In this document: positions 3,064 through 28,920 of the stretch, piece after piece
Numbering within the stretch: the first letter of the stretch is position 1
Layout: each line of letters begins with the position of its first letter
Assembly (NCBI GenBank): GCA_020437395.1
Contig: JAGQWJ010000010.1
Coordinates: forward strand, 1-64,000
DNA: 64,000 nt
DNA from: Ignavibacteriota bacterium
Lineage (GTDB): Bacteria; Bacteroidota; Ignavibacteria; Kapaibacteriales; UBA2268
Direction: 5' to 3'
Translations under genes and position numbers: made by a program
Notes under the pieces: generated by a model
Told to the model about the DNA's origin: nothing
The model's input: only the letters and a program-made list of their open reading frames with translations
Databases searched by the model: none

Positions 3064-3080
3064 ATATTTATATAATCCTA

Positions 3081-5252: not shown

Positions 5253-5303
5253 ATTATTATAAGGTTAAATAGATTTAAGCGAAATTAAGAAAAAGAATTG
5301 AAA

Positions 5304-6668: not shown

Positions 6669-6693
6669 TCTACTAAAATAATTTTTTTTTAAA

Positions 6694-10363: not shown

Positions 10364-12544
10364 TTATTGTCCGATACCTAAAGTACCACCAACGTTAACA
10401 CAACCATCATTGATTAAGCTTTCAGAAGCAGTTAATTCAGCGCCGCCGAATACTACTAAACCATCGATATAATTGTTAGTATTTGTTACTTCTTCGTTTA
10501 CATAGTCAGGTAAGAAATTAGGAGCAGTAACATTTTCTACAATGATACGACCTGGATCTGTGATACCAGCTACAGGAACTGTACTAGTAGCAAATGCGCC
10601 TGGATACGTAGCATCATTACCTATCATCAATGTAGGAGTAGGGAATGTTGCATTTTGCTCTTGGATAGTTATCTTAGTTGCCATTGCACCTGGAGTTGCC
10701 TCTGGGATTGCATAACCATCATAAGGTCTTACGAAACCAGCCCAAACGTTGTGACGAATAACAACTTCTGCATCAGTTGGAGGCTCAGTGCCTTCATCCC
10801 AAGTTGCAGGATTTGACCATCTACCAGGATTAACTGAGTACCAGATTGCTGGACCAGCTCTTAGAATTAAATCATTATTTGCTAAGAATTCATCATCAGC
10901 AAGACCATCTACTGCAGCAGCAGTTGGTTTGAAACCTGGAAGTTTAACAGAACCTAAAGAGCCAGCACCAGAAGCAACTCTAGTATAAGTGTTACCAGTA
11001 GATACTTTCTCATCATTAGTAGCATCCCCCTCTCTAAATCTGATTTGAGTTTCGTTATAAGAACCATCCCATAAGTTATCTTCATCTACGTCAGATTGTT
11101 GGTAACCAGCTGTGATGTCAGCTACCCAAGTAGTGTAATCATAATCTAAATTGATATCTCTTTTGATGTCTCTAGTATTATCGTATTGAGCAGTTGTACC
11201 ATCTGGATTAACTATCATTGCAAAGTAGTTACCGCCAGCAGGTGCCGTTGTAAAGTTCACAATAGATGCATCGTTGTTGAATTTATAATCAACACCAGTC
11301 ACAACAGCGTGAGTTCTTCTGAATTCTCCAACAACTTCTTGGTTAGAAGAGTAAGTAACATTACCAGCAGTTCCGCTTGTCAAGTTAACCATACCACCAG
11401 TAGTATTTAACATGTCGAGATTATCACCTCCATTAACACTATTCATTGCAAATGAAGTAGCAATATTAATGTCGTTCTCTGTACCACCATTATTAGTAGG
11501 TGAAATATTACCATTGTCTTTCGAAATAATAAATGCACCATAAGGATTAGTAGATGCAGTTGTTACGATATTAGAAGCACCGTCTTGGTAATCGATAGTT
11601 GAACCTGCGTCATAAGTCATGTTAGTTCTAAGTTGGTCACCGTTTGTGAATCCACCATTTACATTGAAAGTAGAAAGGTTGTTAGCATTGAAAATAGCAT
11701 TTGCATCAGCTAAAGCTACTGTACCAGTTACAGTAGTAGCAGAAGCTACAGCACCATCTCCAAGAGCAAGAGTACCATCAGTAACTGTTACATTTGCGCC
11801 TAAAGCATTAGCTGCACCATTTACATTTACAGTACCATCACCTAAAACTGATAAATCACCAGCACCAGCATCTTGAGTTAAATCACCTGAAGCAGTTAAA
11901 ACTGCAGTAGCACCATTAACAGCAACACCACCTCCAGTTGTAGAACCATCAATACCAGTAGTACCATTAACTAAAGCGATACCAGCTGTTAAAGACTTAA
12001 GACCTGCATTTGTGAAATCTACATTATTATAACCACCACCGTTAGTAAGGTTTTCAGCAGCAATAGCTTGTGCACCTGTACCATCATAAGTGATTAGTGA
12101 AGTACCATATACTCTATCACCACCTGCAGTAGTGTAGTTACCGCCTATAAATACTTGACCTGCACCGAATTGTTTTGTTGCAGCATCAGCCATATCAAGG
12201 TCAGTATAATAACCAGGGAATATGTTTTGATTTCCAACTACGTTATCAGCATAGCTTACTAAACCAGGTACTCTTGCAGTAGCGGTAGCTAATGGAGTAG
12301 TACCATCAAATGAGTTATCTGTACCCATCATCTGGATAGTACCAGCATTAGTAATCTGAGCAGTATTAGCATTATTGTTAGTAAATTTACCGTTGTCGTT
12401 ATTAAATCTAATAACTCCACCAGCGACGTTGTTCACTTTCTTGCTATTTACTAAGTCTTGAGCATTAGAAGTGAACGAAAATAGAACAATCCCGGCAGCA
12501 AGTGCAGCCAGTCTTGAACCTTTTTTTGTAATGAATTTATTCAT
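10364..12544 (-). CDS. Major secreted surface protein with G8-like header (726 residues)
   Basis: I place the start at the ATG at 12544, not an in-frame TTG four codons earlier, because GGAGGG sits seven bases before this ATG. The signal peptide runs MNKFITKKGS to ...FSFTSNAQ. The body is very rich in Ala, Gly, Thr, Asn and Val, with strand repeats (VNNVAGGVIRFNN, ITNAGTIQMMG), and looks like a beta-solenoid. Residues ~565-590 hold the header WYSVNPGRWSNPATWD, found seven times in the neighbouring giant protein. There is no T9SS tail; the end is SLINDGCVNVGGTLGIGQ, close to that of the giant protein. The good ribosome site, less AT-rich coding sequence and following terminator suggest high expression; an S-layer-like or sheath role is conjecture. 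Confidence 0.85.
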   Translation of the reverse strand: MNKFITKKGSRLAALAAGIVLFSFTSNAQDLVNSKKVNNVAGGVIRFNNDNGKFTNNNANTAQITNAGTIQMMGTDNSFDGTTPLATATARVPGLVSYADNVVGNQNIFPGYYTDLDMADAATKQFGAGQVFIGGNYTTAGGDRVYGTSLITYDGTGAQAIAAENLTNGGGYNNVDFTNAGLKSLTAGIALVNGTTGIDGSTTGGGVAVNGATAVLTASGDLTQDAGAGDLSVLGDGTVNVNGAANALGANVTVTDGTLALGDGAVASATTVTGTVALADANAIFNANNLSTFNVNGGFTNGDQLRTNMTYDAGSTIDYQDGASNIVTTASTNPYGAFIISKDNGNISPTNNGGTENDINIATSFAMNSVNGGDNLDMLNTTGGMVNLTSGTAGNVTYSSNQEVVGEFRRTHAVVTGVDYKFNNDASIVNFTTAPAGGNYFAMIVNPDGTTAQYDNTRDIKRDINLDYDYTTWVADITAGYQQSDVDEDNLWDGSYNETQIRFREGDATNDEKVSTGNTYTRVASGAGSLGSVKLPGFKPTAAAVDGLADDEFLANNDLILRAGPAIWYSVNPGRWSNPATWDEGTEPPTDAEVVIRHNVWAGFVRPYDGYAIPEATPGAMATKITIQEQNATFPTPTLMIGNDATYPGAFATSTVPVAGITDPGRIIVENVTAPNFLPDYVNEEVTNTNNYIDGLVVFGGAELTASESLINDGCVNVGGTLGIGQ

Positions 12545-12548
12545 GATT

Positions 12549-12554
12549 CCCTCC
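12549..12554 (-). promoter_or_regulatory. Strong ribosome-binding site of the 726-residue protein
   Basis: GGAGGG on the minus strand, four bases before the ATG triplet's upstream flank (spacing about 4-7 depending on register). Most genes in this window lack such a site, so it both fixes the start and points to strong translation. Confidence 0.8.
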
Positions 12555-12624
12555 AAAGGAATAGTTAATAATTAAATGTATTTTAAATCTTAATACTAAT
12601 TTATTGTAATTCAATTTTTTTATC

Positions 12625-12644
12625 AATAAGTATTACTACTTAAA
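12625..12644 (-). promoter_or_regulatory. Candidate operator, second copy of the 20-base palindrome
   Basis: The + strand reads AATAAGTATTACTACTTAAA, matching 17 of 20 bases of the perfect palindrome at 26274-26293. It lies 80 bases upstream of the 726-residue gene's ATG; the other copy lies 81 bases upstream of the 432-residue gene's ATG. The inner core (AAGTA..ACTACTTAA) is preserved. It sits immediately after the stop codon of the giant gene. Binding by the response regulator at 26315-26974 is my inference. Confidence 0.5.
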
Positions 12645-12646
12645 TT

Positions 12647-15600
12647 CTATTGTCCAATTTCTATGATACCTTGATTAGTAATCTCAGCATCATTAATTAT
12701 GCTACCATTGACTTGAAGCGAATTAACACCTACAAGGTTATTTAAGTTAGCATCGTTTATAATCGTTAAGTCTCTTCTAATTAGCAATGGAGCACTTACA
12801 GTCTTGTCACCTGCATTGTTCAATATACAATACCCAAGCCCAGAAACTAAATTCACTGGTAAATCTGAAATAGTCTGTGCAGAACCATAGAACTCTACTA
12901 TACTATTAATATCTAGCGTATATGTTGCATAGTTGTTTACAGAAGTCAATAGATTATTCGTACCAGAAATGCTCAATTTAGCATTTGCGTCAATACTCAT
13001 AGTACCAGTTCCATCGGAAGTTGCCGTTTGCGTATTAATATCAGCAACACCTTGTTGAACACTCATATTCCCTTCCACAGCAAAAATGCTTTGGAAAGTA
13101 ACCGTATTATTAGAAACAGGACCAGAGTTATTTACAGCAATATTTTCTACATTAATAGGCAGTCCGTTACCAGTAACTTGGTTAGTCACCCCATTGTAAA
13201 TAAAGCTTGTTCTTAGTGGAGCAGTCGCAAAAGTTCTAACAACAGAAGCTTGAATATTACCAGTCGCGTTACCAAGAGCAGTAATACCATCAGGTGAGCC
13301 AACTCCAAGAGTTGATAGTTCACCCATAGTGAAATAGTCTCCAGTTATAATATTAGAACCAGTCAGCAAAGTACCAGTATTAGTAGAGCTTGTACCAAGA
13401 GCCACGCCACCAATAGCAACAGAGCCAGATACATCAAGAGTAATAACGTGATCATTGACACCTGCATTACCACCACCGACAACGACTGAGTCTTGTACTA
13501 AGTTCGGGTAAACACCTGTGGCAAATATTGGCCCAATATGACTTGAGTTTGCAGTCCATGAGTTAGGGTCAGTCCAATTACCAGTTTGACGGCTATAGAA
13601 TATTCTTCTGAATGCTATAAGCTCAGCCAAGGTCCAATCGCCAACCATATCTGCAGGGTTAAAAGTTGCAGGAGTTGAAAAAGTATTGTTTACTAAATCT
13701 ATACCATTATTATAAGTAGTCCAATTACCTGGCGTACCTTCGCCTGGCTCTGACCATTTACCAATTCGATCATAATCTGCCTCAGTACCACGTATATCTA
13801 AGTCATTATAATTGAATACAAATTGTCCTGTAATCGTAGTCGTTGCACTATTAATTTCCCAATATCTTGCAATATAATCGCTCGCATCAGAAGACACTTC
13901 ATTATGAGCACCGGCAGGGTTGGTGTTTGAACCAACATTAGTTTTCAAACAAATGTCACCATCAGCACCACTTGCATCTGTGCTCAAAGTAGCAGGAGCA
14001 TAGAGGTCATTGCCACCTTCCAAAGAACCCACTGGCCAAGTGTAAGTACCATTAGTAGTAACGGTTCTACAAAGCGAACCACCAGTTTTTGAAGTTCTTA
14101 TGTACCTTAGTGGCCCGTCGGAACCACCAGTTATAGCATTAGGATTGGAATTTGTAACACTTAAATTACCACCATTGCCCAATTCAAATATTTGTGGGTT
14201 AGTATTCGCACCAACTAATAAATTAACATTTCCAGTAACAGTCGCCGGTGTATTCAATATCCCAATACCAGCACCTGCACCTCTATCCATATTAAGATCG
14301 CAGAACGTAAGTGCTCCCGGTCCAGAAATTGTTTGATCAGTAGCTCCACTACCTTGCAGAGTCAAATCAGAACAAATAGGAGTACCGTTAATATCTTCAT
14401 TTAATACGAGTGGTTCAGTAGTGGATAAATTACCCTGCAAATTAAGATTATTGCCATCTGCAGAGTGTCTCAAATCACCATCAGTAATCACTAAATCGCC
14501 CGAAATAGTATAGTCATTGTCCCCAATGGCAACGGTATTGTCGCCAGGAGGTCCTGAATTATTTATAGTTAACGAAGCAATTGTAGTTGGGAACTCATTT
14601 CCAAATATTTGGTCTGTTGTCCCTGAGAAAATAAAGTTTATATCATTATCAATTGTTTTATTATCGAATCTCGCCCAACTCTTATTATCATCGGAATCAA
14701 TTCCAAATTCTGATTTATTGTCAATAGTACCACCTTGCAAGTCGAAAGTACTTGTTGGGTTACTACCAGTAACGTATTTACCAAGACCAATTTCAAATGT
14801 AGAATTATCTTTGATGGTAAGTGATTCAACTTGAGGAATAGTGTCTAACTCTATTTCATCGCTATCATCAATGATAACAATATCATCCAATTCAGTAGGA
14901 TCATTATTAGGATATATTCCGCCTGGAGGCAATAAAGTACCACCAATATCAAATGCCCACGAAGCGTTATCAGTCCAAGTACCATTAGAGTTAGAATAGA
15001 ATATTCTTTGTGGTTTCTCACCAATATAGAAGTTTCCAAAGTCTTCCCATAGAAGAGAAGTAGCAGAAAGCTCAACATCGGCATTACCTACGTTCCACTG
15101 CAAGTCTGTTTTTTGTCTTTGATACCAGATTGGGAAAGTAGCAGGTTGCAATGTCTCTCTTCTAATAACAGCTTTGGTTTCATCAATGGAAGCCAATTCG
15201 GAAGAAGGGAATTCGAATTTTGTATCGAATTTTCTTGTACCAAGATCAACAGTATTATCCCCTGCTGATATTTTCCAAAATCTTTCAATTCTCTTATTTG
15301 TGTCTAATCTATTTCCCCACATTGGTTCTTTTGGAACTGGCTCAAGAGCAATAGCGTCGAATCCACCGGCAACACCACCTGAACCATTGTCAGTAGTTAC
15401 AGTAACAGGAGTATAAATATCATTAAGGCCAATAGCGAATTGTTTAGAGTCAACACCAGCACCAAAATATCTTTGCATAGTACCATCAACGAAGCCAGTA
15501 CCTGTTCTATTTACCGTAGCACCATTAGCAATAATCACTTTTCTTGTGTCAGCTCTTACCTTAATCAAAGTTGTGTCGATAAGATTAAGCTCGTTTTCAA

Positions 15601-18600
15601 CGTACATGTGTGTATTAGCACCACCAGATGGCAGTAAATCGAAAGTAATATCACCACCAGTAACGTCTAAGTCATAGAACGACAAACCATCTGCATTTCC
15701 AACTCTGAAAGTTTTTGTATTCGGTCCAGCTACAAGGAAATTGCCAAGTAGTGGTTTCCAAAGCCCATTAGTATATTGAGAAAAATCACCATATAATCTG
15801 AAATCTCTGTTTCCAGATTCATAAATCCCATTATCAACAATAATAGAGTCTCTGACTTTAATAGGTTCGGAACCGATATTATTAGTAGTGAATACTGATT
15901 CTGTAGGGTCAGTTAAGTCAACCTTGACAGAAGCAAGAGTATCAGGGAAACCTTTTCCAGAAACCATACTAGCATTATCTGCTTTGAAAATATAGTTAGC
16001 TACCCCAAAAGATTTAGTATTAGTCTGTATTGCACCTTGAGTAGAGTTATCAGTAATACCACCAACATTACTAAACGCTAAGACACAGTCATCATCAATT
16101 TGGAATGAACTTGCTTTCAAACTACCAGTATTACCAAGAATATATAACTCACCAGGGTTTCCATTATATTTTTCTACAATCACAGCCCTTACAGGGTCAT
16201 GCAATATACCAGCAGGCATAGTAATACGTTTGTTGTCACCAATTCTGACAATATCTGAAGTCAGATTAGGGAAACGAGAGGCAGGTGCACCACCATAACC
16301 GTCAGTTGACCAACTACTAGCTAATCGCCAATTTGCATTTGCAATACTATAGAAAGTAATACCAGATGGTTCACCAACAACAACATCACCATAGAAATTT
16401 ATATCTTTTGTTCTGATTGAAGTCGTTGTTTTATTAATCGCATCCAATTCAGTCCAAGTTCCTGTACCTGGAGGACAAAGTCCAGGAGGTGCAGGACAAG
16501 CTGGATCATACATAAATTGCTCAAAGAAATTAGTATTTGCACTATTTCTTATGTCTGCTGGATTAAGGAAGTCTAACTTCAATTCATAAGTATTACCAGA
16601 CCCAAGAGCAAACCCATTAGTGTTGATATTCCAATATTTTTGGATATTAAGAGCTGTATTAATAATAGCAGGGTCTAAATCTGGATGATCTACTCCGTAA
16701 TGAGCTACTCCGATTAGTCCAGCAGTATTCCCATTATTTGCAGTTTTGATAAGTGCAGGTCTGTATGAGTCAATAGTATCTGAACCAACAACAAATAAAC
16801 GCTCGGTAGCATTGGCTGTGAAATGACGATAAAGTCTTCCATATACGTGACCTTTTCCATTTCTAATTATAGCAGGATTAGTACCACCAAGAGGGCTTAA
16901 CTCTACGAATTGTCCAAATTGATTTGCACTGCCGTCTATAAACGCATTATTACCAGCAGTAAACTCTAAGTTTCTATGAATTTGTAGATTAGAATTTCCT
17001 GAACCAGACAAAATTACTTTACCGCCAGTTTTATCAATAGTTAAATTGTGCAAACTCATACCAGGGGCGTCGTCATTGAAAATTGTTTGATCACCCGAAC
17101 CATTAAGAGTTAACAATCTGAAATCTGCAATATTACCGTTTGATGCATCGAATAGACCATAGTTCGTGATATTACCACCAACTGAAAGACTGTTTGTAGA
17201 TACATCATACTCAGCATCATTATCTATTTCTAAATCATTAGTAACTGTGATTGTAGCACCAGTTTGTTTGGCAGTAATTGTACTTCCAACAACATGTAAA
17301 TCATAAATAGGAGTACTACCAATAATTTTAATTTCAGAGCCTCCAACAGAAGAAGTCGAATCACCAATTTGAACTACCCCACCAGTAAAACCAGTACCAA
17401 CGGCAGAATTAACTTTATAATCTGCATTTGCACCAGGAATAGCATTAGCAATTATTATTCTACCTGAGGCCATATCTAATTGTGAGCCAGCATTGACATT
17501 AAGACCAATAAGACCAATATCTGTTGCACCTTTATCTAGTACTTTAAGTTCTGAGTTATTCTCAATATTCAGTCGAACTGTTGCCCCCAGAAAATCTCCA
17601 TCAAAAGCACCAGCAACAGTCATTTTCCCACCATCTAAGTGGACTAAAGTATTATCTTGATAAATGAAGTTCTCGTCAATAGCATTACCAACTACAAATT
17701 CGCCACCAAATATTTCTATCGTATTGTCAACATCAGTATTAACTGTTTCATTGGATATTAACCGTCCATCAGTAACTACGATACCCGTGAATTGCTCCAT
17801 ATTCATTCCGATACCGTCATTACCAGCTACGAAATCGTAGTTGTTGTAATGTTTCAGAATACCCGATTTTAGATTGAATCCATAGTCAACAAAAGATGAT
17901 GAAGCAGCACCAAGAGTTGCAGAGTTTATAAACAAAGTATCACTCAAACCACCATCTTTGTTTAGGTTTACTTCTGATAATCCGAGCCAATCACCGCTAC
18001 CTTCTAAATAACTATCGTTAGGACCGTTGAAATTTAGAACAACAAAATCATTATTACTATTGTGTAAGTCTATTCCAGCAGTGTTAGCAGAGGTACCATT
18101 GTTTACCAATCTTTCGTAAATAGATAAAGTATCTACTTTACCTACTTGTGTAGCTGATTGAATTCGGCCATCCGTATCAAGGAATAAGGATCTTTGAATT
18201 GTCATGTGCTTATCAAGAGGTGAAGCCGCAAAGTTAAGAATACCTCTTCCGGCAGTCGAAACTCCGCCAAAAGTACCACCAATTGTAATTGTATCTACTG
18301 TTACAGTATCAACATTGAATGTTATCGTATGTCCATCAATAAATACAGTATCACTTTGTGAAAGTTCACCAGGCGAATATGAAGACGGAGGACCAGAATG
18401 ATTAACATTTGACCAATTAAGAGGTATATCCCAATTACCAGTAATACGAGAATAATAATTCCTACCTTTAAAGTAAGTGCTAGACTCCCCTGCTGTCCAA
18501 TCACCTTCAAAGTAAAGTGTGTTAGTAGCTTTTATAGTATCTGGGTAAGCTGAAGGCGTTGGTCCTAAGTTTACTTCCCATTCATTAGTAGGTCTGTAAA

Positions 18601-21600
18601 GTCCAGCATAATATCTCGAGGCATTACCATTCGTATCTTCAGGGCTATTGTAAACAAATCTAAATTCTGAAGTATTTAGACTAGTAATATTATTCTGAGA
18701 AACTGTCCAATACTTGTCTAGTATCAGATCGTTTAATCTATTTGGATGTTTTTCATTTATTAATTGAACAGAAATAGATGGTAAACCAGAATATGTACCA
18801 TCAAGTGAAACATACCCAGGATTATAAAGAGTGTCAATACCAATTGGGAAAGTAAATGATTGTGTACCACTAGAATTATTATATTGTTTGGTTACAACAC
18901 CAGACAAAGAAGGCGTACCAGAAACTTTAATCATTCTATTTGTACCAAACCCCCCTGTACCAGAAGTAAGTGCCGAAGCATTACCAAAGGTAAGCGTGTC
19001 ATTATCTTGGATATTAATGAAAGTTTCAGAAGTGATTGCAGTATTACCAGCAAAAGTTGTATTTGTATTAACAAAAATATCGTTTGAGTCTTTATTTACA
19101 ACTACCGAACCAAGAGTAACTGCATTGTTTCCTCTTATAGTTTGATTCTTTTTATCATAGAATGTAATTGTTGAACTACCTTGATTGAATGGATTTAAAG
19201 TATCTACAACAATATCACCAGCTAAATTAATATCGTTCCCATTAGCATTCAAAACACCGCTTGTAAACTTCAAAGAATCAACAATGTTGTAAGTTGTACT
19301 TTGATTAATTTGGCTATTTGGACGTGGACTTTTTATTTCTAACGAACTGATTACCGATGGTATCAAATTACCCATATTCTGAGTAATAGTAGTATTCGGA
19401 TTTCTTACGACTATAGTATAATCCTCTGCCTCACCATTACTATTTGCACATGGAGAATTATTTGAGCTATTAGATCTATAAATCACTCTCATTTGCGTGG
19501 AGCCTTCTGGCGTAGAAGCAGGAACAGTAAAGTTTACGGACTGTATGTTTGTGTTAAAGCTTGTTGAAGCTATTTGCTCAGTAGCATCTGTCCAATCACC
19601 ATCTCTATTCCAGTCTATAAAAGCTTTTAAGTCTCTATTTCCTGAGCTCGACTCACGTTCAACTTCGAGTGTATAAGTCTGTCCAGCCGTTAACTCAGCA
19701 ACATAATCGTGGAAAGACAAAATATTGATTAAACTGTCACCAGTGTTGTTATTCATTATAGTAGTGGCACCTTGACTCACAGTTACTCTACGTATATATC
19801 TTGAATTATCACCCATATTTATTGTACAATAATTGTGATAATAAGGGAAACTTCTGTTAGGATTATCTGGATTAATACCTTCAGCTGTATAAACAAAGTT
19901 AACACTATCTTCAATAGCTCTTGCATAACCTTTCAAATTACCTAATCCTCTAACAGCAACAGGAGAAGTGTTATTTACACCATCAGAAGAACCAATAATT
20001 ACTGTTGCTCCTTTTTCAGCTTTGAAAGAGTTCCCACGAAGATCAAAAATATCTAAATCTAAAATACCTTTAGGTTTCACTAAAACGTTTGGACCAACTT
20101 TAGCTAAATAACGAGCAGGAGAACCCGTAGCCGTATATTCACCCATTCCAATTGAAGCGTCGAGAGTTACTTTATGATTTGAATCAATAAGTACATTATC
20201 ATATTGACGCAATGGAAATTTTCTAAAGTTTATAGTTGGAGAAATTGTATCCGCTACATTTATATTGCTCAGATGACTGACAGTTGACCAAGTATTTGGG
20301 TCTGTCCAATTTCCAGACTGTCTTGAATAGAAAGTAATAAATTGTGCTTTACCGTTTTGGTTACCCAACACGAAATCCCCTAATAATAATGAGCCATTAG
20401 GTAGGGTTTTTGACGTACCCCAATCTTTTGTTATATTATTTACATCCGTAAATACATTTCCTGTTGTACCATTACCAAAAGTATTAGCAAATCTTGGAGT
20501 TCTACTCATATCTCTTGTATCAGAACATATCCCTGCGTTAGAAGGCCAAATTGACTCCCAATCTGTTGTATCTCTTGTATTATCATCAAAATATTTATTA
20601 AATGCAAAGTCAGCACATTCGTAACTATCTAATGCTTCCCAATCTTCTGAATCTCTGTACTCACTTCTGATATCAAAATTTCTTGCACCCCTTACAAATG
20701 TTGACCATGCGGGTTTAGATAATCTCCAATATCTATGAATTATACGACCAGGATAGACAGGTGGATTTGTGGTAGTAATTATCTCATCACCCATATAAGG
20801 GTAATCCCCTGGTAATGCATTCATAGCTAAGAAACCTGCAGTCGAACCAGAACCACCCCTCATATCTAAATAGAAAGGAGAATAGTAAAGAGTATCACCA
20901 ACTTCAAAAGTAACCTCACTCGCGTCACCAGCTGGAATATTTTTAATCAATTCACCATTGACGTGTCCATTACCAAATCTATTAACTGTACCTCTTACTA
21001 TAACGTAATTCCCTGGTTTACGGGCATATATTATTCCATTGTTAGAACCTTGGAATCTTAGTTGATCTACTATATCAAGCGGTGAATTATTTTCTAATAC
21101 CAAATTACCACTATTCTTATCAATTCTGACACTATAAAGTCGTAAAGAATCCGTATTCTCGTCATTAATATATTGTGTTGAATCTCCACTAAATTCTATT
21201 ATTGGAGTAGAAGTATAACCAAAACTAACTCCTGCAGATCTTCTCAAATTACCTTGAATTGTGAAAGAAGTATTATAAGAAAAATCACCTGATTTTAAAT
21301 ACAACGAATCTAATATTACTTTGCTTGGTTGGTTAAATGTCAATGAATTGGACGGCTTATTCATAATCAATCTATAAGTATTATCAGGCAACCCATCACC
21401 AATAAACTGATTAGAAGTACCTTTGTATTCAAAAATACCTCTTTTGTGGTTATTATAATTGTAATTTCTGATACTCATCTGTACTGCACCACTTACATTT
21501 GGAGCAGTAGTTATCCCTTGGAAATGTTCTATTTCCATTTTCCCAAATTGATTTAAACGAAATTCTCCGGTTCCTTGTAAACTATTATTTGCTGTAAAAT

Positions 21601-24600
21601 TAATTATTCCAGTTGAATCAATACTTACAAATAGATTGTTAGTTTTATCAGTTATAAGATTTATTCTTTTATTATCACCTATATAAACATTCCCGTCCGT
21701 AGTTGGTTCAATTGTAGTCGCTGCTCCCCCGAATCTTTCTGTTGACCAATTAGAAGGTGTTGACCAATTACCATTAGCTATACTATAAAAACTATAGTTA
21801 CTTGGCTCGCCAGTAATAAACGTCCCAAATTGTTTAGTTTTGAAGAACTTTATACTACTAGCTGTTCTACTCCCAATGTAGGGATTACCTAATCTTTTTG
21901 GGAAAACCCAAGCACTTCCATTCCACAATCTAGCTTCAAAGAAATTAGGATTTGCACTATTTCTTAAATCATTAGTTGCAATATAATTCAACTGTGCAGT
22001 ATAAGTTCTATCAACGAGTGCAAAAGTGGAAGTCGAAGGTACTGATATTGTCCACTGACGTCTTATGTTTTTGGAATCAGACATTAAACTATTCGCTGGA
22101 TTGAGTCCAACAGTTACAGGTGAAGTAGCACCAGTAATTGTATCGGCTTTCACAGCTACAAATCCAGCTGAACCAGCCGTACTGTCAACAGTAAAGTTAA
22201 CAGGTGTATAGGAAGTGGCTGTTCCAACTTCGTAAAGCGTAGTGGAAGCACCTGTAGGTATTGATTTCCATTGTGTGCCATTTATATGTCCGGGATTTCC
22301 ACCTGGTCTTATAACATTCGCTAATGTCGTTACTCTTCTATTTCCAGTAATTATATTTCCAGATTCTAAAGTAACATTTCCATTCAAATTCAACCCATTA
22401 TTGATAGTTGTACCAATGTTCGATACATCGACACCATTAGGGTTTCTTAAAATCAATTTATCAAAATTCTCATCTGCATTTGGTTTTGAAATGGTTTGTA
22501 ACGCAGTACCATTCAAATATAAATTTGCATTGTTTGTTGTGTAAGTCCCTTTATAATTCAACCAATTGCCAGACAATGTAATATTAGTTGCCTGGTGAAG
22601 TAAAGTGGAATTTGAGTCAATGCGAATATTATTTCTTATTTTCAATTCGTCTAATGGTCTGACAATCCCTTTACCTGTAATAACTAAATTATAAAAAGGA
22701 TTCTCAGTAGTATCTCTACTAGTTATATTTGTTGTTGATGCAGTAACAGGTGAATTCATCAGTACTGTATTTGTACCGGGTACGAAGATACTACCAGCAT
22801 CTTGATTTATCCAGTTACCTTGTACTGAAAGATTAAAACCATTCAAATTAAAAGTAGATTGATTCCTTAAAGTCAAATTTCCTTTTAATACATACAAAGG
22901 TGTCCCAGAGTCTTTGAGCAATTTATTTCCTGTACTATCAATAATCAAATTATGATAATTCAAGTAACTTGCAGAATCAGTTGGGCTATTTGGTTTGATA
23001 GGAATATATTGGTTGCCACCATTCTTATTGAAAACTACTGTAGAACCTGAAGTTAAAAATTTATAAGTTGTAGAGCTGAAATCTAAATTTGATATTTTAA
23101 GCGAGTCAGCAATTTTTATTTGTCCATTAGAAGGAAAAGTAATATTACCACTCCTGTTACCTGAAAGTTCCAGTTTGTTGTACTGAAGAACTGCCGGTGA
23201 TGTTATGTTTGTAGGTACAGTTGCTGCACCTGAACCGAAGAAATTAATTAATCCTGCGGTGAAATAAGGAGCAGAATAGTTAGTAGGGAAAGCATTTCTG
23301 ATTCTTAACTCACCACCTCGCATAGTTAACTTACGATTTGCACTTGCTCCATTTACCGAATAAGCACCTATATCTAATATACCATCATTTATTATTAATG
23401 AGTCCTTTATAGAAACAAAGTCATTCATTTCAAGAATTCTATTAGATGTTGCCTTGTTCAATATTATACTTCTTGCTGATGCTGGTAAACCATTCCCAGA
23501 ATATTGTAATGAATCTGTACCTTCATAGATAAAAACTACATTTTCAGAGATACTTTTACTTGTAGATCTTAAATTTCCAATTGTATTTCCATTATCAATA
23601 CCATTAGCACTGGTTATTCTCAAAACAGCATCATCTTTAACGATAATTGAATCTGCTGATAAATAATTCTCACCCACAAATACTATTGTCGAATTTTCTT
23701 CAATGCTAATATTTCCTATTGTATTTGAATTCGCATCAACTGTAACAGTGTTATTTTTAATTCTTGCTCTATCAGAACCATTGTTAGGAATTGTAGTAGA
23801 TGCTGCACCACCGAATCCAAGTTTTGACCAAGTATTCGGATCATCAAAATCGCCATTTGCTCTGCTGTAATAAGTAGCAATTGCAGCTTCTTCTATACCA
23901 GCTGTCCAATCTCCCCTTATTCTACTTACTTGTTCAGAGTAGATTAAATCTGCATTGATATCAACAACTTGGTTAGAAGCCCCTGGATTAACAAACCATT
24001 GTGCTCCACCATCAGGATATGGCGGTGAATACTCAAGAACCTGATAGTTACCCTCATTCGTTGTTACTTCAGATTGATGATATTTGAAAAGGAGGTTAGC
24101 TCCTTGATTACTTATTGTAATGTTCTGCGGCTCTATTACCCAATATTTTTTCAAAGCATTATTTGCTAATTGCAACGCCGGATGTTCTGTAGTAACTGCC
24201 TTAACTTGAATAAAAGCATTTGAACCGATTGTTACTTTACCAGCAATCAAAGTTACATCGGCAAAAGTATATACTCTGGATGGTGTACCATTAGTAGAAA
24301 GTGGAAATCTAAAATTATAAGGAAGAGAAGCAGCACTAGAAATTTTCTTTCTTAAAAAACCGCTATTAATACCTAATGAGGTATAAATACTTCTATTGTT
24401 TGTAAAAGCAGCTGCTGTTCCATTATCAGTGAAAATATTACCACTTTCGCCAATTGTTAAAGTATCATCTGAAATATCTACTAATGTATTTGAAAGTAAT
24501 CTTAAGTTTCGTTCAACTGAAATATCATCTGTTAGAAGTATATTCCCAGAAGATTTATTAACTGAAACATCATAGAATTTTGATTCCGAGCTACCACCGA

Positions 24601-24874
24601 TAGTTTGGTTTGCATTAGAGTTAAATAATGTAACCCCACCGTTCGGAGTCATTGTTCCATTATTAGTCCAATTACCACTAACAACAATAGAATCACCAGC
24701 ACTTTGAGTAAACTGCGAAGAAGTTTCAAGTTGGACATTGCCTTTGACACTAAGTTTAGCATTGCTACTAAGGAATAGTGTGCTATTTCCACTCACATTT
24801 AGTCCGGCTTGGGAAAAGGCAGAATAAGTTAGTAGTATTAAAATTGAAATAAATATTGTAATTTTTTTTATCAT
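12647..24874 (-). CDS. Giant modular secreted protein, 4075 residues
   Basis: Signal peptide MIKKITIFISILILLTYSAFS, then a single uninterrupted frame of 12.2 kb. It consists of seven composite modules of ~450-700 residues, each opened by a header of the form FYSxxxGxWxxPxxWS (near residues 334, 1026, 1514, 2138, 2841, 3290 and 3757). Within modules there are recurrent blocks: a beta-solenoid with GxGLPxxxxxLxxN, a domain with STAGSAGF or NGNTAGL, and RYWxI. Residues ~1700-1790 contain a GEVED-type domain (DWNRDGDWTDATEQ ... GEAEDYTIVV). No T9SS tail and no membrane anchor; it ends SIINDAEITNQGIIEIGQ. Very likely a cell-surface adhesin or fibre. It begins 19 bases after the 432-residue gene, so they share a message. 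Export route beyond Sec is unclear. Confidence 0.9.
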   Translation of the reverse strand: MIKKITIFISILILLTYSAFSQAGLNVSGNSTLFLSSNAKLSVKGNVQLETSSQFTQSAGDSIVVSGNWTNNGTMTPNGGVTLFNSNANQTIGGSSESKFYDVSVNKSSGNILLTDDISVERNLRLLSNTLVDISDDTLTIGESGNIFTDNGTAAAFTNNRSIYTSLGINSGFLRKKISSAASLPYNFRFPLSTNGTPSRVYTFADVTLIAGKVTIGSNAFIQVKAVTTEHPALQLANNALKKYWVIEPQNITISNQGANLLFKYHQSEVTTNEGNYQVLEYSPPYPDGGAQWFVNPGASNQVVDINADLIYSEQVSRIRGDWTAGIEEAAIATYYSRANGDFDDPNTWSKLGFGGAASTTIPNNGSDRARIKNNTVTVDANSNTIGNISIEENSTIVFVGENYLSADSIIVKDDAVLRITSANGIDNGNTIGNLRSTSKSISENVVFIYEGTDSLQYSGNGLPASARSIILNKATSNRILEMNDFVSIKDSLIINDGILDIGAYSVNGASANRKLTMRGGELRIRNAFPTNYSAPYFTAGLINFFGSGAATVPTNITSPAVLQYNKLELSGNRSGNITFPSNGQIKIADSLKISNLDFSSTTYKFLTSGSTVVFNKNGGNQYIPIKPNSPTDSASYLNYHNLIIDSTGNKLLKDSGTPLYVLKGNLTLRNQSTFNLNGFNLSVQGNWINQDAGSIFVPGTNTVLMNSPVTASTTNITSRDTTENPFYNLVITGKGIVRPLDELKIRNNIRIDSNSTLLHQATNITLSGNWLNYKGTYTTNNANLYLNGTALQTISKPNADENFDKLILRNPNGVDVSNIGTTINNGLNLNGNVTLESGNIITGNRRVTTLANVIRPGGNPGHINGTQWKSIPTGASTTLYEVGTATSYTPVNFTVDSTAGSAGFVAVKADTITGATSPVTVGLNPANSLMSDSKNIRRQWTISVPSTSTFALVDRTYTAQLNYIATNDLRNSANPNFFEARLWNGSAWVFPKRLGNPYIGSRTASSIKFFKTKQFGTFITGEPSNYSFYSIANGNWSTPSNWSTERFGGAATTIEPTTDGNVYIGDNKRINLITDKTNNLFVSIDSTGIINFTANNSLQGTGEFRLNQFGKMEIEHFQGITTAPNVSGAVQMSIRNYNYNNHKRGIFEYKGTSNQFIGDGLPDNTYRLIMNKPSNSLTFNQPSKVILDSLYLKSGDFSYNTSFTIQGNLRRSAGVSFGYTSTPIIEFSGDSTQYINDENTDSLRLYSVRIDKNSGNLVLENNSPLDIVDQLRFQGSNNGIIYARKPGNYVIVRGTVNRFGNGHVNGELIKNIPAGDASEVTFEVGDTLYYSPFYLDMRGGSGSTAGFLAMNALPGDYPYMGDEIITTTNPPVYPGRIIHRYWRLSKPAWSTFVRGARNFDIRSEYRDSEDWEALDSYECADFAFNKYFDDNTRDTTDWESIWPSNAGICSDTRDMSRTPRFANTFGNGTTGNVFTDVNNITKDWGTSKTLPNGSLLLGDFVLGNQNGKAQFITFYSRQSGNWTDPNTWSTVSHLSNINVADTISPTINFRKFPLRQYDNVLIDSNHKVTLDASIGMGEYTATGSPARYLAKVGPNVLVKPKGILDLDIFDLRGNSFKAEKGATVIIGSSDGVNNTSPVAVRGLGNLKGYARAIEDSVNFVYTAEGINPDNPNRSFPYYHNYCTINMGDNSRYIRRVTVSQGATTIMNNNTGDSLINILSFHDYVAELTAGQTYTLEVERESSSGNRDLKAFIDWNRDGDWTDATEQIASTSFNTNIQSVNFTVPASTPEGSTQMRVIYRSNSSNNSPCANSNGEAEDYTIVVRNPNTTITQNMGNLIPSVISSLEIKSPRPNSQINQSTTYNIVDSLKFTSGVLNANGNDINLAGDIVVDTLNPFNQGSSTITFYDKKNQTIRGNNAVTLGSVVVNKDSNDIFVNTNTTFAGNTAITSETFINIQDNDTLTFGNASALTSGTGGFGTNRMIKVSGTPSLSGVVTKQYNNSSGTQSFTFPIGIDTLYNPGYVSLDGTYSGLPSISVQLINEKHPNRLNDLILDKYWTVSQNNITSLNTSEFRFVYNSPEDTNGNASRYYAGLYRPTNEWEVNLGPTPSAYPDTIKATNTLYFEGDWTAGESSTYFKGRNYYSRITGNWDIPLNWSNVNHSGPPSSYSPGELSQSDTVFIDGHTITFNVDTVTVDTITIGGTFGGVSTAGRGILNFAASPLDKHMTIQRSLFLDTDGRIQSATQVGKVDTLSIYERLVNNGTSANTAGIDLHNSNNDFVVLNFNGPNDSYLEGSGDWLGLSEVNLNKDGGLSDTLFINSATLGAASSSFVDYGFNLKSGILKHYNNYDFVAGNDGIGMNMEQFTGIVVTDGRLISNETVNTDVDNTIEIFGGEFVVGNAIDENFIYQDNTLVHLDGGKMTVAGAFDGDFLGATVRLNIENNSELKVLDKGATDIGLIGLNVNAGSQLDMASGRIIIANAIPGANADYKVNSAVGTGFTGGVVQIGDSTSSVGGSEIKIIGSTPIYDLHVVGSTITAKQTGATITVTNDLEIDNDAEYDVSTNSLSVGGNITNYGLFDASNGNIADFRLLTLNGSGDQTIFNDDAPGMSLHNLTIDKTGGKVILSGSGNSNLQIHRNLEFTAGNNAFIDGSANQFGQFVELSPLGGTNPAIIRNGKGHVYGRLYRHFTANATERLFVVGSDTIDSYRPALIKTANNGNTAGLIGVAHYGVDHPDLDPAIINTALNIQKYWNINTNGFALGSGNTYELKLDFLNPADIRNSANTNFFEQFMYDPACPAPPGLCPPGTGTWTELDAINKTTTSIRTKDINFYGDVVVGEPSGITFYSIANANWRLASSWSTDGYGGAPASRFPNLTSDIVRIGDNKRITMPAGILHDPVRAVIVEKYNGNPGELYILGNTGSLKASSFQIDDDCVLAFSNVGGITDNSTQGAIQTNTKSFGVANYIFKADNASMVSGKGFPDTLASVKVDLTDPTESVFTTNNIGSEPIKVRDSIIVDNGIYESGNRDFRLYGDFSQYTNGLWKPLLGNFLVAGPNTKTFRVGNADGLSFYDLDVTGGDITFDLLPSGGANTHMYVENELNLIDTTLIKVRADTRKVIIANGATVNRTGTGFVDGTMQRYFGAGVDSKQFAIGLNDIYTPVTVTTDNGSGGVAGGFDAIALEPVPKEPMWGNRLDTNKRIERFWKISAGDNTVDLGTRKFDTKFEFPSSELASIDETKAVIRRETLQPATFPIWYQRQKTDLQWNVGNADVELSATSLLWEDFGNFYIGEKPQRIFYSNSNGTWTDNASWAFDIGGTLLPPGGIYPNNDPTELDDIVIIDDSDEIELDTIPQVESLTIKDNSTFEIGLGKYVTGSNPTSTFDLQGGTIDNKSEFGIDSDDNKSWARFDNKTIDNDINFIFSGTTDQIFGNEFPTTIASLTINNSGPPGDNTVAIGDNDYTISGDLVITDGDLRHSADGNNLNLQGNLSTTEPLVLNEDINGTPICSDLTLQGSGATDQTISGPGALTFCDLNMDRGAGAGIGILNTPATVTGNVNLLVGANTNPQIFELGNGGNLSVTNSNPNAITGGSDGPLRYIRTSKTGGSLCRTVTTNGTYTWPVGSLEGGNDLYAPATLSTDASGADGDICLKTNVGSNTNPAGAHNEVSSDASDYIARYWEINSATTTITGQFVFNYNDLDIRGTEADYDRIGKWSEPGEGTPGNWTTYNNGIDLVNNTFSTPATFNPADMVGDWTLAELIAFRRIFYSRQTGNWTDPNSWTANSSHIGPIFATGVYPNLVQDSVVVGGGNAGVNDHVITLDVSGSVAIGGVALGTSSTNTGTLLTGSNIITGDYFTMGELSTLGVGSPDGITALGNATGNIQASVVRTFATAPLRTSFIYNGVTNQVTGNGLPINVENIAVNNSGPVSNNTVTFQSIFAVEGNMSVQQGVADINTQTATSDGTGTMSIDANAKLSISGTNNLLTSVNNYATYTLDINSIVEFYGSAQTISDLPVNLVSGLGYCILNNAGDKTVSAPLLIRRDLTIINDANLNNLVGVNSLQVNGSIINDAEITNQGIIEIGQ
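13552..23873 (-). repeat. Seven-copy module header repeat inside the giant gene
   Basis: The coding repeat FYS-x3-GxW-x5-WS/T occurs at about 13552-13602, 14953-15003, 16300-16352, 18410-18460, 20281-20332, 21741-21796 and 23823-23873. An eighth copy lies in the neighbouring gene near 10800-10850. Copies 3, 5 and 7 as read from the N-terminus (NWTDPNTW, NWRLASSW, NWTDPNSW) differ in DNA sequence, so the repeats are old and diverged rather than fresh tandem copies. Confidence 0.8.
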
Positions 24875-24893: not shown

Positions 24894-26192
24894 TTATTTT
24901 ATTACAGTAATATAGAAATCTCTAGCAGTCAAATTTTGGTTTGCAGTACCAACATTTCTGAATCTAACTTCGACAGTACCTGAACTAGAAACACGAGCAT
25001 AAGCAATAACTATATCTGCACCCAAACCATTTTCTGGTGAAACAATAACTGAAGATCCTGTTTCAGCACCTGAGACAGAGAAAAATTCTTGATGAGATAA
25101 TCCAGCATCTATTTGAGGTAAATCCGCATTTATAGTAACTTTAATTATATTGGTTAAGCCCGTACCACTTTCACCAATTTTTACTTTTCCATCAGATTGT
25201 ACTGTCAATGTTGTATCACCATTGGATTCTACTAATAATGTATTGCCAGAACCAGTATTGTTTAGATAAGCAACACCACCGTTGCCAGAGTTTGTGATTT
25301 CAATAGTTTCATCAGCAGCGTTAGTACCTGTTAACTGAATAGCTCCATCAGTTACACTTATATTACGACCATTTCCATTACCACCTTGGTCATATGCAGC
25401 ATCTAAAGTGTTCCCACTACCTCCTCCTGCAACAGTTCCAGGTTGCCATTGAGTTAAAGTACTATTCCATTGCAAAACTTGGCCATCAGTAGGAGCTGTG
25501 CTAGCTACATCTCTACCCTGCAACCCTATTACTAATGCAGTATCAGTACCTGTAACAGATAAATCTCTTCCGAATGAGAAAGTCGATAATTGACCACCAG
25601 CAGTTGTTTTTACAAAGCTATTCGCGGCTAATCCTGAGAATATTATATTACCCGAGGAAGTGATACCAGTTGCGGCATTGATAGCACCAGTGTTATTTAT
25701 TTGGAATTGAGAAGTATTACCTACAGAAAACAACCCAAGAGGATTATTAGTACCTATACCAAAATTCCCATTAGCTTTCAATCTTAGTCTTTCTATATTG
25801 TTAGAGAAAATAGTGAAATCTGTATTATCAGTTGTACCTAAAAAATCAATACCTGGTGTAGTACCTGAATTTCCAGTTTTAGCCCACGCTGCTGTACCAA
25901 CATTAGCGTTAGTCAACAATCCTCTCCATGCAGTTGCTCCGTTATCATAAACTTCAAATCTATTATTATCAGTATTAAAGATTAGAAGCCCATTAGCCGG
26001 AGACGGTATGGTTGCTCTTTGTGCATTAGTCATTCTTGGAACTAATACACCTTTTGGAGTTGTTACATAAGTAACGTGAAGTGCAGCAGAATTGTCAGGT
26101 GACGTTGTGTTGATTCCAACATTTTCTGTTTGTCCAAAAACTAAGTTGGACGAGAATAGAATTGTAGTTAAAAGGATTAAAGCTTTTTTCAT
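24894..26192 (-). CDS. Secreted tail-fibre/adhesin-like protein
   Basis: A 432-residue protein with signal peptide MKKALILLTTILFSSNLVFGQ. The start of the mature part, NVGINTTSPDNSAALHV followed by KGVLVPRMT and SPANGLLIFNTDNNRFEVY, is the hallmark of a large group of Bacteroidota surface proteins that resemble phage tail fibres. The middle has strand repeats (GNFGIGTNNPLGLFSV, SGNIIFSG) typical of a trimeric beta-helix stalk, then a Gly/Asn-rich linker and a compact C-terminal domain (~340-432). No T9SS tail is visible. It heads the transcription unit that includes the giant protein and has its own promoter with the palindromic operator. Confidence 0.82.
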   Translation of the reverse strand: MKKALILLTTILFSSNLVFGQTENVGINTTSPDNSAALHVTYVTTPKGVLVPRMTNAQRATIPSPANGLLIFNTDNNRFEVYDNGATAWRGLLTNANVGTAAWAKTGNSGTTPGIDFLGTTDNTDFTIFSNNIERLRLKANGNFGIGTNNPLGLFSVGNTSQFQINNTGAINAATGITSSGNIIFSGLAANSFVKTTAGGQLSTFSFGRDLSVTGTDTALVIGLQGRDVASTAPTDGQVLQWNSTLTQWQPGTVAGGGSGNTLDAAYDQGGNGNGRNISVTDGAIQLTGTNAADETIEITNSGNGGVAYLNNTGSGNTLLVESNGDTTLTVQSDGKVKIGESGTGLTNIIKVTINADLPQIDAGLSHQEFFSVSGAETGSSVIVSPENGLGADIVIAYARVSSSGTVEVRFRNVGTANQNLTARDFYITVIK

Positions 26193-26273: not shown

Positions 26274-26293
26274 ATTAAGTAGTACTACTTAAT
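26274..26293 (-). promoter_or_regulatory. Perfect 20-base palindrome, candidate operator
   Basis: ATTAAGTAGTACTACTTAAT is fully self-complementary. It lies 81 bases upstream of the 432-residue gene and 21 bases before its TATATTTG element, between that gene and the stop of the response-regulator gene. It has no T-tract and too little G/C to be a terminator. A 17/20 match occurs at 12625-12644 at the same distance from another surface-protein gene. NarL/FixJ-type regulators bind such short inverted repeats as dimers. Confidence 0.6.
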
Positions 26294-26314: not shown

Positions 26315-26974
26315 CTATTCACTTGTTCTCTTTAGAATCGAATATCTAATAAGTTCTGCAACGTTATTAACATCTAGTTTTTGCATTAAGTTATAGCGGT
26401 GCGATTCAACTGTTCGGACACTTATAAATAATTTCTCAGCAATGTATTGGCTAGTTTTACCTTTGGCAACTAAGTCAAGAATCTCTTGCTCTCTTTTAGT
26501 AATCACAACAGGTGTCGCATCTAATTCAGATGTATTAGCCCCTTTTTTCTTTATTAATCTAACCACGCTTTTACTGAAAACTCTTTCCCCTTTTAATACA
26601 TCTAATATAGAATCGATTAGCTCACTTGCATTTATATCTTTTGACAAATATCCATCGGCTCCTGCCTCGAGTGCATTTTCTAGATGAAATGAGTCTTCAT
26701 AAGCCGTAAGCATAATAACGTAGCAATCTAATTTCAAATCACGTATTTTCTTAAGAGCTTCTATACCATTCATTTTGGGCATCATAATATCAGATATTAC
26801 TATATCTGGCTTATGGTACTCGACAGTATCAATCAAATCAAGTCCGTTGTCCGCTTCATCTATAATCTTTAACCTTCTATCTATTGATAGTAATCTTCTT
26901 ATTCCTGCTCTTACTATCTCGTGATCATCAGCAAGAATAACTCTTAGAGGTTTGCTTTCCGTTGGCTCTATCAT
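26315..26974 (-). CDS. NarL/FixJ-family response regulator
   Basis: A 219-residue two-domain regulator. The receiver domain (residues ~10-125) has the acidic pair D16-D17, phospho-acceptor D62 (VISDIMMPKMNG), the conserved Thr (MLTAYED) and Lys (YLSKDI). The C-terminal LuxR-type helix-turn-helix (~150-215) has TKREQEILDLVAKG and the recognition part VRTVESHRYNLMQKL. The start codon overlaps the nadE stop (ATGA), so it is made with NAD synthetase. No histidine kinase gene lies beside it. The palindrome 22 bases after its stop and the surface-protein genes beyond suggest it controls them; this is inference. Confidence 0.93.
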   Translation of the reverse strand: MIEPTESKPLRVILADDHEIVRAGIRRLLSIDRRLKIIDEADNGLDLIDTVEYHKPDIVISDIMMPKMNGIEALKKIRDLKLDCYVIMLTAYEDSFHLENALEAGADGYLSKDINASELIDSILDVLKGERVFSKSVVRLIKKKGANTSELDATPVVITKREQEILDLVAKGKTSQYIAEKLFISVRTVESHRYNLMQKLDVNNVAELIRYSILKRTSE

Positions 26975-28920
26975 AATTGACTCCTTAATTTTTCTATCTC
27001 TGAAAACCAGACTTTACCAATAGTATCAGAAGGCATTCTCCAATCACCACGTGGGGAAAGAGAAACTGACCCAATTTTGATACCATCTGGAATACATGAA
27101 CGTTTGAATTGACTTGAAAAAAATCTTTTGAAAAATATTTCTAACCAATTGATTAGTTCTTTATCTGTATATTTCTCTTTGAATATTCTCTGCAATATAA
27201 AGAATATTTTGCTTGGTTTATAAGAGTGTTTTATAAAGTAATATAGTATGACGTCATGTACTTCATAAGGCCCAATAATATTCTCCGTGTTTTGAATTTC
27301 ATTATTATTTATTGGCAATAATTCTGGACTAATAGGAGTATCCACAATATCTGAAAGTATATCATTTATATTACTATATTCTTTCCAATTACATAACGTT
27401 TTTATCATAAATTGAATAACAGTTTTGGGTAATCCAGAATTGACATTGTACATAGACATGTGGTCGGCATTATAAGTTGACCAACCTAATGCAATTTCAG
27501 ATAAGTCGCCAGTACCTACAACAATACCATTGATTTTATTAGCATAATCCATAAGTATTTGAGTTCTTTCCCTTGCTTGTGAATTTTCATATACAATCGA
27601 CATTTCTTCTGGGTCATGCTCTATATCTATAAAATGAGAGTTTACTGCATTACTAATATCTATCGTCTTACTTGTTATACCTAAGTTATTGTTTAATTCT
27701 ATTGCATTACTATTTGTCCTATCGGAAGACCCTAATCCAGGTAGAATCAATCCATAAATATTCTTTAAATCCAGATTCATTTTCTTAAAAGTTTTACAGG
27801 CTACTAACAATGCTAAAGTAGAATCCAAACCTCCAGAAATACCTAATACTACACTTTTACCATTAATATGTAATAATCTTTTAGCCAAAGCAGTCGATTG
27901 AAAATCTAATATCTCTCTTACTAAATCATCAGCTTTGTCTTCATTTTCAGTGATAAAAGGGTTTTTTGCAAACTCTCTATATATATTGTCTGTAATTTTA
28001 TCACCAATACTGAATTTTAGTATTCTATAATCAAATGATGGTTGTTCGAACCCGTAAGAACTATTTTTTAGCCTAGCATTGTATATTTTTTCTAGATCAA
28101 TATCTGAGATTATGTAATGAGAATCAAAATCAAAATTTCTTGTTTCACAAAGTAATTTACCGTTCTCAGAATTTATAAGATGACCAGAATAAATAACATC
28201 AGTTGTAGATTCACCTGCTCCGCATGAAGAATAAATATAAGAGGAAAGAGTTCTTGCAGATTGGGTAGTTACTAACTCGCGCCGATAATCCGATTTAGAC
28301 AACAATTCGTTACTTGCACTTAAATTCAGTATAACATTAGCTCCAGCTAAACATAAATCCAAACTCGGTGGCTTTACAGCCCAAAGATCTTCACAAATCT
28401 CTATGCCAATTCTTACGTCAGGTCTTTCTTCTGATTGAAAGATAATATCACCACCAAAAGGGATTAAATCATTATTAATTTTTATAGTGTCGAACCTTCT
28501 ATCTACATCAGACGAAAACCAACGTTCTTCGTAGAATTCATTAGTGCTGATAATATATTTTTTAGGAATTATACCTAATATTTTACCTTTATTAATTGCA
28601 ACGGCACAGTTAAACAATCTACCTGAGCTACGAAGAGGTGCCCCCACTACAATAAGGGAATCTATATCTTTCGATTCTTGCTTAATTAAATCTAAACTTT
28701 GCTCCACTGCCTCTAACAATGAGGAGTTAAAAAATAGGTCATTACAAGAGTATGAAGATATTGCCAACTCTGGGAAAAGGCAAATATCAGCTTTTTCATG
28801 ACCTGCTGTATTGAGTAGCGAAAGTATATGTTTAGTATTAAAATCTACATCTGCAACTCTGACTTGAGGAGAAGCATTGAATACTCTTAGATAATTATAA
28901 TTTCTTAGGTTTATTTTCAT
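26971..28920 (-). CDS. nadE: Glutamine-dependent NAD+ synthetase
   Basis: A 649-residue fusion of an N-terminal nitrilase-type glutaminase (~10-270; catalytic elements visible as FPELAIS, PKKY and the nucleophile in GIEICEDLW) and a C-terminal NAD synthetase (~325-649) with the ATP pyrophosphatase loop GISGGLDSTLALLV. It converts deamido-NAD, ATP and glutamine to NAD+, with ammonia channelled between domains. The length is normal for the two-domain form. The stop overlaps the start of the response regulator by four bases. Cytoplasmic. Confidence 0.95.
   Translation of the reverse strand: MKINLRNYNYLRVFNASPQVRVADVDFNTKHILSLLNTAGHEKADICLFPELAISSYSCNDLFFNSSLLEAVEQSLDLIKQESKDIDSLIVVGAPLRSSGRLFNCAVAINKGKILGIIPKKYIISTNEFYEERWFSSDVDRRFDTIKINNDLIPFGGDIIFQSEERPDVRIGIEICEDLWAVKPPSLDLCLAGANVILNLSASNELLSKSDYRRELVTTQSARTLSSYIYSSCGAGESTTDVIYSGHLINSENGKLLCETRNFDFDSHYIISDIDLEKIYNARLKNSSYGFEQPSFDYRILKFSIGDKITDNIYREFAKNPFITENEDKADDLVREILDFQSTALAKRLLHINGKSVVLGISGGLDSTLALLVACKTFKKMNLDLKNIYGLILPGLGSSDRTNSNAIELNNNLGITSKTIDISNAVNSHFIDIEHDPEEMSIVYENSQARERTQILMDYANKINGIVVGTGDLSEIALGWSTYNADHMSMYNVNSGLPKTVIQFMIKTLCNWKEYSNINDILSDIVDTPISPELLPINNNEIQNTENIIGPYEVHDVILYYFIKHSYKPSKIFFILQRIFKEKYTDKELINWLEIFFKRFFSSQFKRSCIPDGIKIGSVSLSPRGDWRMPSDTIGKVWFSEIEKLRSQL

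Follow-up and report, generated by a model that had tools for sequence, protein, structure and literature searches.

In Escherichia coli, the response regulator NarL activates napF and yeaR by acting at sites located between -38 and -49 (PMC4549865), and the sites of the NarL/NarP regulon, whose targets serve nitrate respiration, are 7-2-7 heptamers with a 2-bp spacing. VraR, DegU and DosR/DevR act from palindromic operators, which are bound by a dimer via the alpha-9 recognition helix. The sigma-A (sigma-ABfr) promoters of Bacteroidota carry TAnnTTTG at -7 and TTTG at -33 (PMC9723704, PMC7366714); in flavobacteria, the -7 box spans -12 to -5 (PMC9723704) and the -33 motif is often not found (PMC7366714). 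In a 64,000-nucleotide stretch of DNA from an Ignavibacteriota bacterium (hereafter the window), we analysed two similar palindromes located ahead of two groups of surface protein genes. Judging from sequence comparison, we consider it highly likely that these palindromes are the operators of a single NarL-family regulon that activates the two surface operons in the class II manner. The control of both surface units by the adjacent regulator through the palindromes, in an arrangement that recurs across the order, is very probable; a single NarL-type activator for both units had been proposed in the initial annotation, and this proposal is supported by site conservation, the spaced -7 box and the co-occurrence of the targets. 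In this genus, the predicted regulon would consist of two surface operons; in some relatives, the set would be wider. Our literature search found no publication on this regulon; the kind of mechanism is known, and the regulon, operator and targets appear to be new. For a mostly uncultured Kapabacteria-like order, the analysis thus provides a predicted, sequence-based regulon with its regulator, its operator, the type of promoter and the targets, and it connects an orphan regulator with giant surface proteins of unknown function.

The genes of this locus lie on the minus strand in the order nadE, response regulator, first palindrome, 432-aa gene, 4075-aa gene, second palindrome, 726-aa gene and more surface genes. 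The nadE gene (26971–28920) encodes an NAD synthase with a CN-hydrolase domain, is the upstream neighbour of the regulator gene in most relatives and overlaps it by 4 bp. The regulator gene (26315–26974) encodes a NarL/FixJ-type protein composed of a receiver domain (Pfam Response_reg, 3.9e-30) and a GerE helix-turn-helix domain (5.7e-20), and it is the candidate binder of both sites. VraR was its best match in the PDB, with NarL and DevR also among the best matches. The receiver domain contains the ADDHE and SDIMMP motifs, which align with VraR and NarL, and both the phospho-acceptor aspartate and the acidic pair are conserved. The regulator had been described as an orphan, and this description holds: no cognate histidine kinase gene is adjacent, the neighbours being nadE and the surface genes.

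Unit 1 consists of two genes. The first (24894–26192) encodes a 432-aa secreted protein with the N-terminus VGINTTSPDNSA and no match in Pfam, NCBIfam or the PDB; the second (12647–24874), separated from the first by about 20 bp, encodes a secreted repeat protein of 4075 aa that contains a single GEVED domain. The G001 homologue of the 432-aa protein (L061/L234) features an in-frame TAG near the start of its gene, corresponding to either an assembly error or inactivation. Unit 2 begins with the gene of a 726-aa secreted protein (10364–12544) that has homologues family-wide. Its ATG is preceded by a Shine-Dalgarno-like GGAGGG (12544–12560) that is kept in four species; Shine-Dalgarno sequences are usually lacking in Bacteroidota (PMC6847099). 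Behind the 726-aa gene are five co-directional genes (1627–10283), the order of which is conserved in the family. These encode a 760-aa protein with a dockerin-like tail and a 435-aa protein with a T9SS-like tail (both tails judged by eye), a 454-aa OmpA-family beta-barrel, a 723-aa CHASE-PAS degenerate kinase (3081–5252) and a 478-aa TPR protein (1627–3063). We infer that these five genes belong to the unit 2 operon.

The first palindrome, at 26274–26293, is perfect over its 20 bp, in agreement with the initial annotation, and its 16-bp core, TAAGTAGTACTACTTA, occupies positions 26276–26291. The second, at 12625–12644, is a genuine 17/20 copy, the core of which (12627–12642) has one mismatch relative to the first core. 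The distances of 81 and 80 bases previously given between the palindromes and the ATGs, at 26192 and 12544, were likewise confirmed. Located 23 bp downstream of the first core on the minus strand is TATATTTG (26252–26245), a perfect Bacteroidota -7 box, and its position places the predicted transcription start of unit 1 at about 26240. This box, together with the absence of TTG at -33, had already been described for unit 1 and was found as reported. In addition, we identified a -7-like box for the second copy that the initial annotation did not contain: TAAATTAG (12603–12596, minus strand), also 23 bp downstream of its core, matches five of the six consensus bases. The unit 2 box is imperfect in this genus and reads TAnnTTTG in most other genera, and no TTG is present at the -33 position upstream of either box. 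Based on the extent of the -7 box in flavobacteria, both cores would occupy approximately -36 to -51 relative to the predicted transcription start, with the centre at about -43.

At up to three mismatches, the palindrome has exactly two matches in the window, whereas the mean over 100 dinucleotide shuffles was 0.01 and no shuffle contained two. When the two window strands were scanned for a composite of the core, a 22–23-bp spacer and the -7 box, the scan returned exactly these two sites at a score of at least 21, and they are also the only sites in the 2.94-Mb genome that match the 16-bp core with at most one mismatch. When three mismatches were allowed, the core was found at 42 places genome-wide, compared with 47 for the reversed control, and TAAGTA-N4-TACTTA with one mismatch was rejected as a genome-wide predictor because it showed no excess over the reversed control either. 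The pair is beyond chance, yet the loose palindrome has little predictive value by itself, as follows from the lack of excess at three mismatches. This lack is also what a chance likeness between two AT-rich intergenic palindromes would lead one to expect; such a coincidence is nevertheless extremely improbable given the 0.01 matches expected per window, and it is refuted by the conservation of the sites, at a fixed spacing, at the levels of genus, family and order. We identified one possible third site in the same genome, at C48:9500, where TAAGTAATATTACCTA and, 23 bp further on, TATATTTG lie ahead of a gene for a 148-aa secreted protein. In G003, this palindrome precedes a different gene and is without a good -7 box, so the site is kept as a candidate only.

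Within the genus, three congeners (G001, G002 and G003) have a perfect unit 1 core adjoining a regulator gene whose product is 87–92% identical, and their unit 2 cores carry at most one further change. In the alignment of unit 1, the core and the -7 box are invariant and the spacer between them is variable; the unit 2 alignment is similar, the variation again falling between the operator and the -7 box. Because the whole intergenic regions are well conserved in the genus (mean identity of 90% and 93%), this within-genus conservation is supportive rather than decisive. Three further groups of palindromes were considered and rejected as regulon members. The extra congener sites at two mismatches are mostly inside genes. 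In three congeners (L058, L158 and L160 in G003, G002 and G001, respectively), a TAAGTAATAWTACTTA palindrome is conserved at a distance of about 170 bp from a downstream RNase-Z-like gene; these palindromes have no -7 box at the right distance. The thirty TACGTAGNNCTACGTA sites in G042 have no -7 box and apparently represent a dispersed repeat; in this genome (L262–L289), a TACGTAGAACTACGTA-like palindrome occurs about 30 times, mostly in intergenic DNA, and several of the copies share a downstream CACAGCTC.

Across the order, one strong orthologue of the regulator was identified in 90 of 123 genomes; the named relatives found with the regulator are metagenome genomes filed as Ignavibacteriota, Bacteroidetes or Candidatus Kapaibacterium. 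We scored the 300 bp behind the regulator at 80 loci for TnnGTA-N4-TACnnA followed at 21–25 bp by TAnnTTTG, with 200 dinucleotide shuffles per locus. The site was present at all 35 loci where a 432-like (VGIGT) gene comes next after the regulator (p ≤0.02 each) and at 6 of the 45 other loci. The six exceptions are mostly 432-like genes or contig ends: L017 and L019 belong to congeners misnamed by the filter, L196 is at a contig edge, the gene next to L208 is similar to the 726-aa gene, and the match at L032, within an open reading frame, is probably due to chance. Because the consensus was first spotted by eye in nine of these 80 loci and later widened, the comparison of 35/35 with 6/45 is not a fully independent test, and related genomes are non-independent draws.

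More independent tests than this count are provided by unlinked 432-like genes, by homologues of the 726-aa gene and by a family-wide scan. The site was also found ahead of 432-like genes located away from the regulator (G014, G023, G035, G066, G067 and G068); in G035, the two are separated by 940 kb on one contig. Among the 726-aa homologues, 26 of 30 are preceded by the site, and the four misses correspond to truncated loci or to a wrongly picked reading frame, with G001 among them in fact having the site. In 54 family genomes, the pattern scan returned 64 matches, compared with six for the reversed pattern, and the spacer was 22 or 23 bp in 55 of the 64, five lengths being allowed. At least 30 of the 64 matches precede unit 1 or unit 2 genes, and several others precede genes for secreted proteins or lipoproteins. 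The enrichment before secreted and surface protein genes suggested in the initial annotation was thus observed, as was retention of the motif upstream of orthologues in the genus, family and order. The expected excess over random DNA failed for the loose palindrome (42 versus 47) and held for the palindrome combined with the spaced -7 box (64 versus 6).

Across seven contigs, of which about 143 kb was covered, sites with a score of at least 22 were found only before these surface genes or before an inserted second regulator. In G007 (L337, 1235–1822) and in G070 (C1, just behind the regulator), this second response-regulator gene separates the operator from the 432-like gene; in such genera the operator would have a further regulator as its target. 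Other genera also have probable additional members of the regulon, namely small secreted proteins or lipoproteins, the genes of which have the operator, a 22–23-bp spacer and TAnnTTTG (L148 in G019, 1479–1494; L364, L366 and L367). In G103 (L292, 2053–2068), a TPR protein gene that resembles the TPR gene at window positions 1627–3063 is preceded by an operator-like site, a 23-bp spacer and TAAGTTCG.

The same distribution bears on the possibility that the palindromes are RNA features, namely a terminator or 3' hairpin of the gene upstream (the regulator gene for copy 1 and the giant gene for copy 2). Both copies are inverted repeats just after a stop codon, as this would require, but the site is absent behind regulators that lack a surface gene and present before surface genes that have no regulator upstream. 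Moreover, neither palindrome is followed by a T-run, both fold no better than shuffled sequences (z of -0.64 and 0.10), and the fixed 22–23-bp distance to the -7 box is not expected for a terminator. We therefore regard an RNA feature as very improbable and retain the interpretation of the palindromes as operators.

Comparison of the regulators with their sites identified a residue of the recognition helix (motif RTV[EQ]xHR) that tracks the third base of the half-site. This base is A in 63 of 68 half-sites associated with ESHR (Ser) regulators and in 12 of 14 associated with QNHR (Asn) regulators, whereas it is C in 30 of 34 half-sites for ETHR (Thr) and in 4 of 6 for EAHR (Ala); QSHR (Gln-Ser) regulators have mixed G and A half-sites. 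A switch is seen inside one genus, where G020 combines Thr with TACGTA, and G034, G063 and G064 combine Ser with TAAGTA. G017 is an exception, with ETHRY and an A-type site. On the tree, the residue changes six times, and the three supported independent pairs include about two concordant, none discordant and one without a difference; because independent changes are few, the covariation is suggestive rather than proven. When the TVKN/TVES and TVxxH motifs are matched, the covarying residue falls at the position of N198 in Listeria DegU, which has been proposed to contact a base and at which mutation reduced binding (PMC9263151). The family may thus represent a natural data set in which one NarL-family recognition-helix residue appears to set one operator base.

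The covariation supports direct binding of the sites by the adjacent regulator and bears on an alternative in which the regulon is the same but is bound by another LuxR-type regulator, the adjacent one being a mere neighbour. The genomes contain many candidates with receiver or LuxR-type domains (25 first-look candidates in G000), and G007 and G070 have the second regulator gene between operator and surface gene. We nonetheless consider this alternative unlikely, since the adjacent regulator is a strong single orthologue that, throughout the order, is conserved together with the site, and the residue in its recognition helix follows the operator base. In addition, four genomes (G004, G005, G029 and G032, two of them incomplete) have no close regulator orthologue, neither target and no site that we could find. 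Counting against control by this regulator, the target genes are present in three others (G010, G014 and G062) in which no regulator was found. The nadE gene is also truncated or missing in G014 and G062, so an assembly gap is likely there; in G010, by contrast, nadE is followed by a gene other than the regulator.

The sites, their spacing and conservation, the co-occurrence of the targets, the presence of the site irrespective of linkage and the helix-operator covariation, all obtained by comparison of genomes, are consistent with the following mechanism, for which we infer direct binding, phosphorylation dependence and operon extent. An unlinked kinase would phosphorylate the response regulator, which would then dimerise and bind AGTA-N4-TACT with one recognition helix per half-site. 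The bound dimer would be positioned at about -43, directly upstream of sigma-A and in place of the -33 element, and would recruit RNA polymerase to promoters with a -7 box and no -33 box, as in class II activation. Unit 1, encoding the 432-aa protein and the 4075-aa giant, would thereby be co-expressed with unit 2, encoding the 726-aa protein and the outer-surface proteins of the co-directional genes behind it. The operator position argues for activation rather than repression. A regulator that binds the same sites and represses until a signal relieves it could block polymerase from a site at -36 to -51 that abuts the promoter. This is improbable, however: NarL-type sites near -43 are known as activating (PMC4549865), and the 64 family-scan matches combine a -7 box with no enrichment of TTG at -33 (19–21 bp upstream of the -7 box), which is the pattern that promoters dependent on an activator should show.

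Throughout the family, the surface cluster includes the gene of a CHASE-PAS protein (window 3081–5252; loci L337–L345). All seven examples examined have a degenerate catalytic half of the kinase; a phospho-His motif such as SHQLRNSL is retained in G023, G024, G035 and G070 and lost in G000, G003 and G007, and the protein has no phospho-His in the genus studied here. A CheY-like gene lies beside the CHASE-PAS gene in G023, G024 and G070 only. We tentatively consider, as a rather doubtful extension of the activation mechanism, that the dedicated regulator and the giant surface apparatus evolved together across the order and that the in-cluster CHASE-PAS protein signals to the regulator in a non-orthodox way. 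This kinase relative, from which the catalytic half and, in some genera, also the phospho-His have been lost, would relay an outside signal.

Compared with Bacteroidota sigma-ABfr promoters, the -7 box is at the expected place (PMC9723704, PMC7366714), whereas the -33 element is missing here, with the operator abutting the place where it would lie; given that flavobacterial promoters are often without this motif, its absence alone is weak evidence. The candidate system can be likened to VraR, DegU and DosR/DevR in its predicted binding of a palindrome by a dimer via the recognition helix and differs from them in sequence specificity, in targets and in having no linked kinase. With the NarL/NarP regulon of E. 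coli it shares a response regulator with a GerE helix-turn-helix domain, a 16-bp inverted repeat just upstream of the core promoter and probably activation, here suggested by position, napF and yeaR being activated from about -43 (PMC4549865). Unlike the NarL/NarP regulon, its half-site is AGTA or CGTA with a 4-bp spacing, its promoter is of the Bacteroidota sigma-A type and its predicted targets are giant surface proteins.
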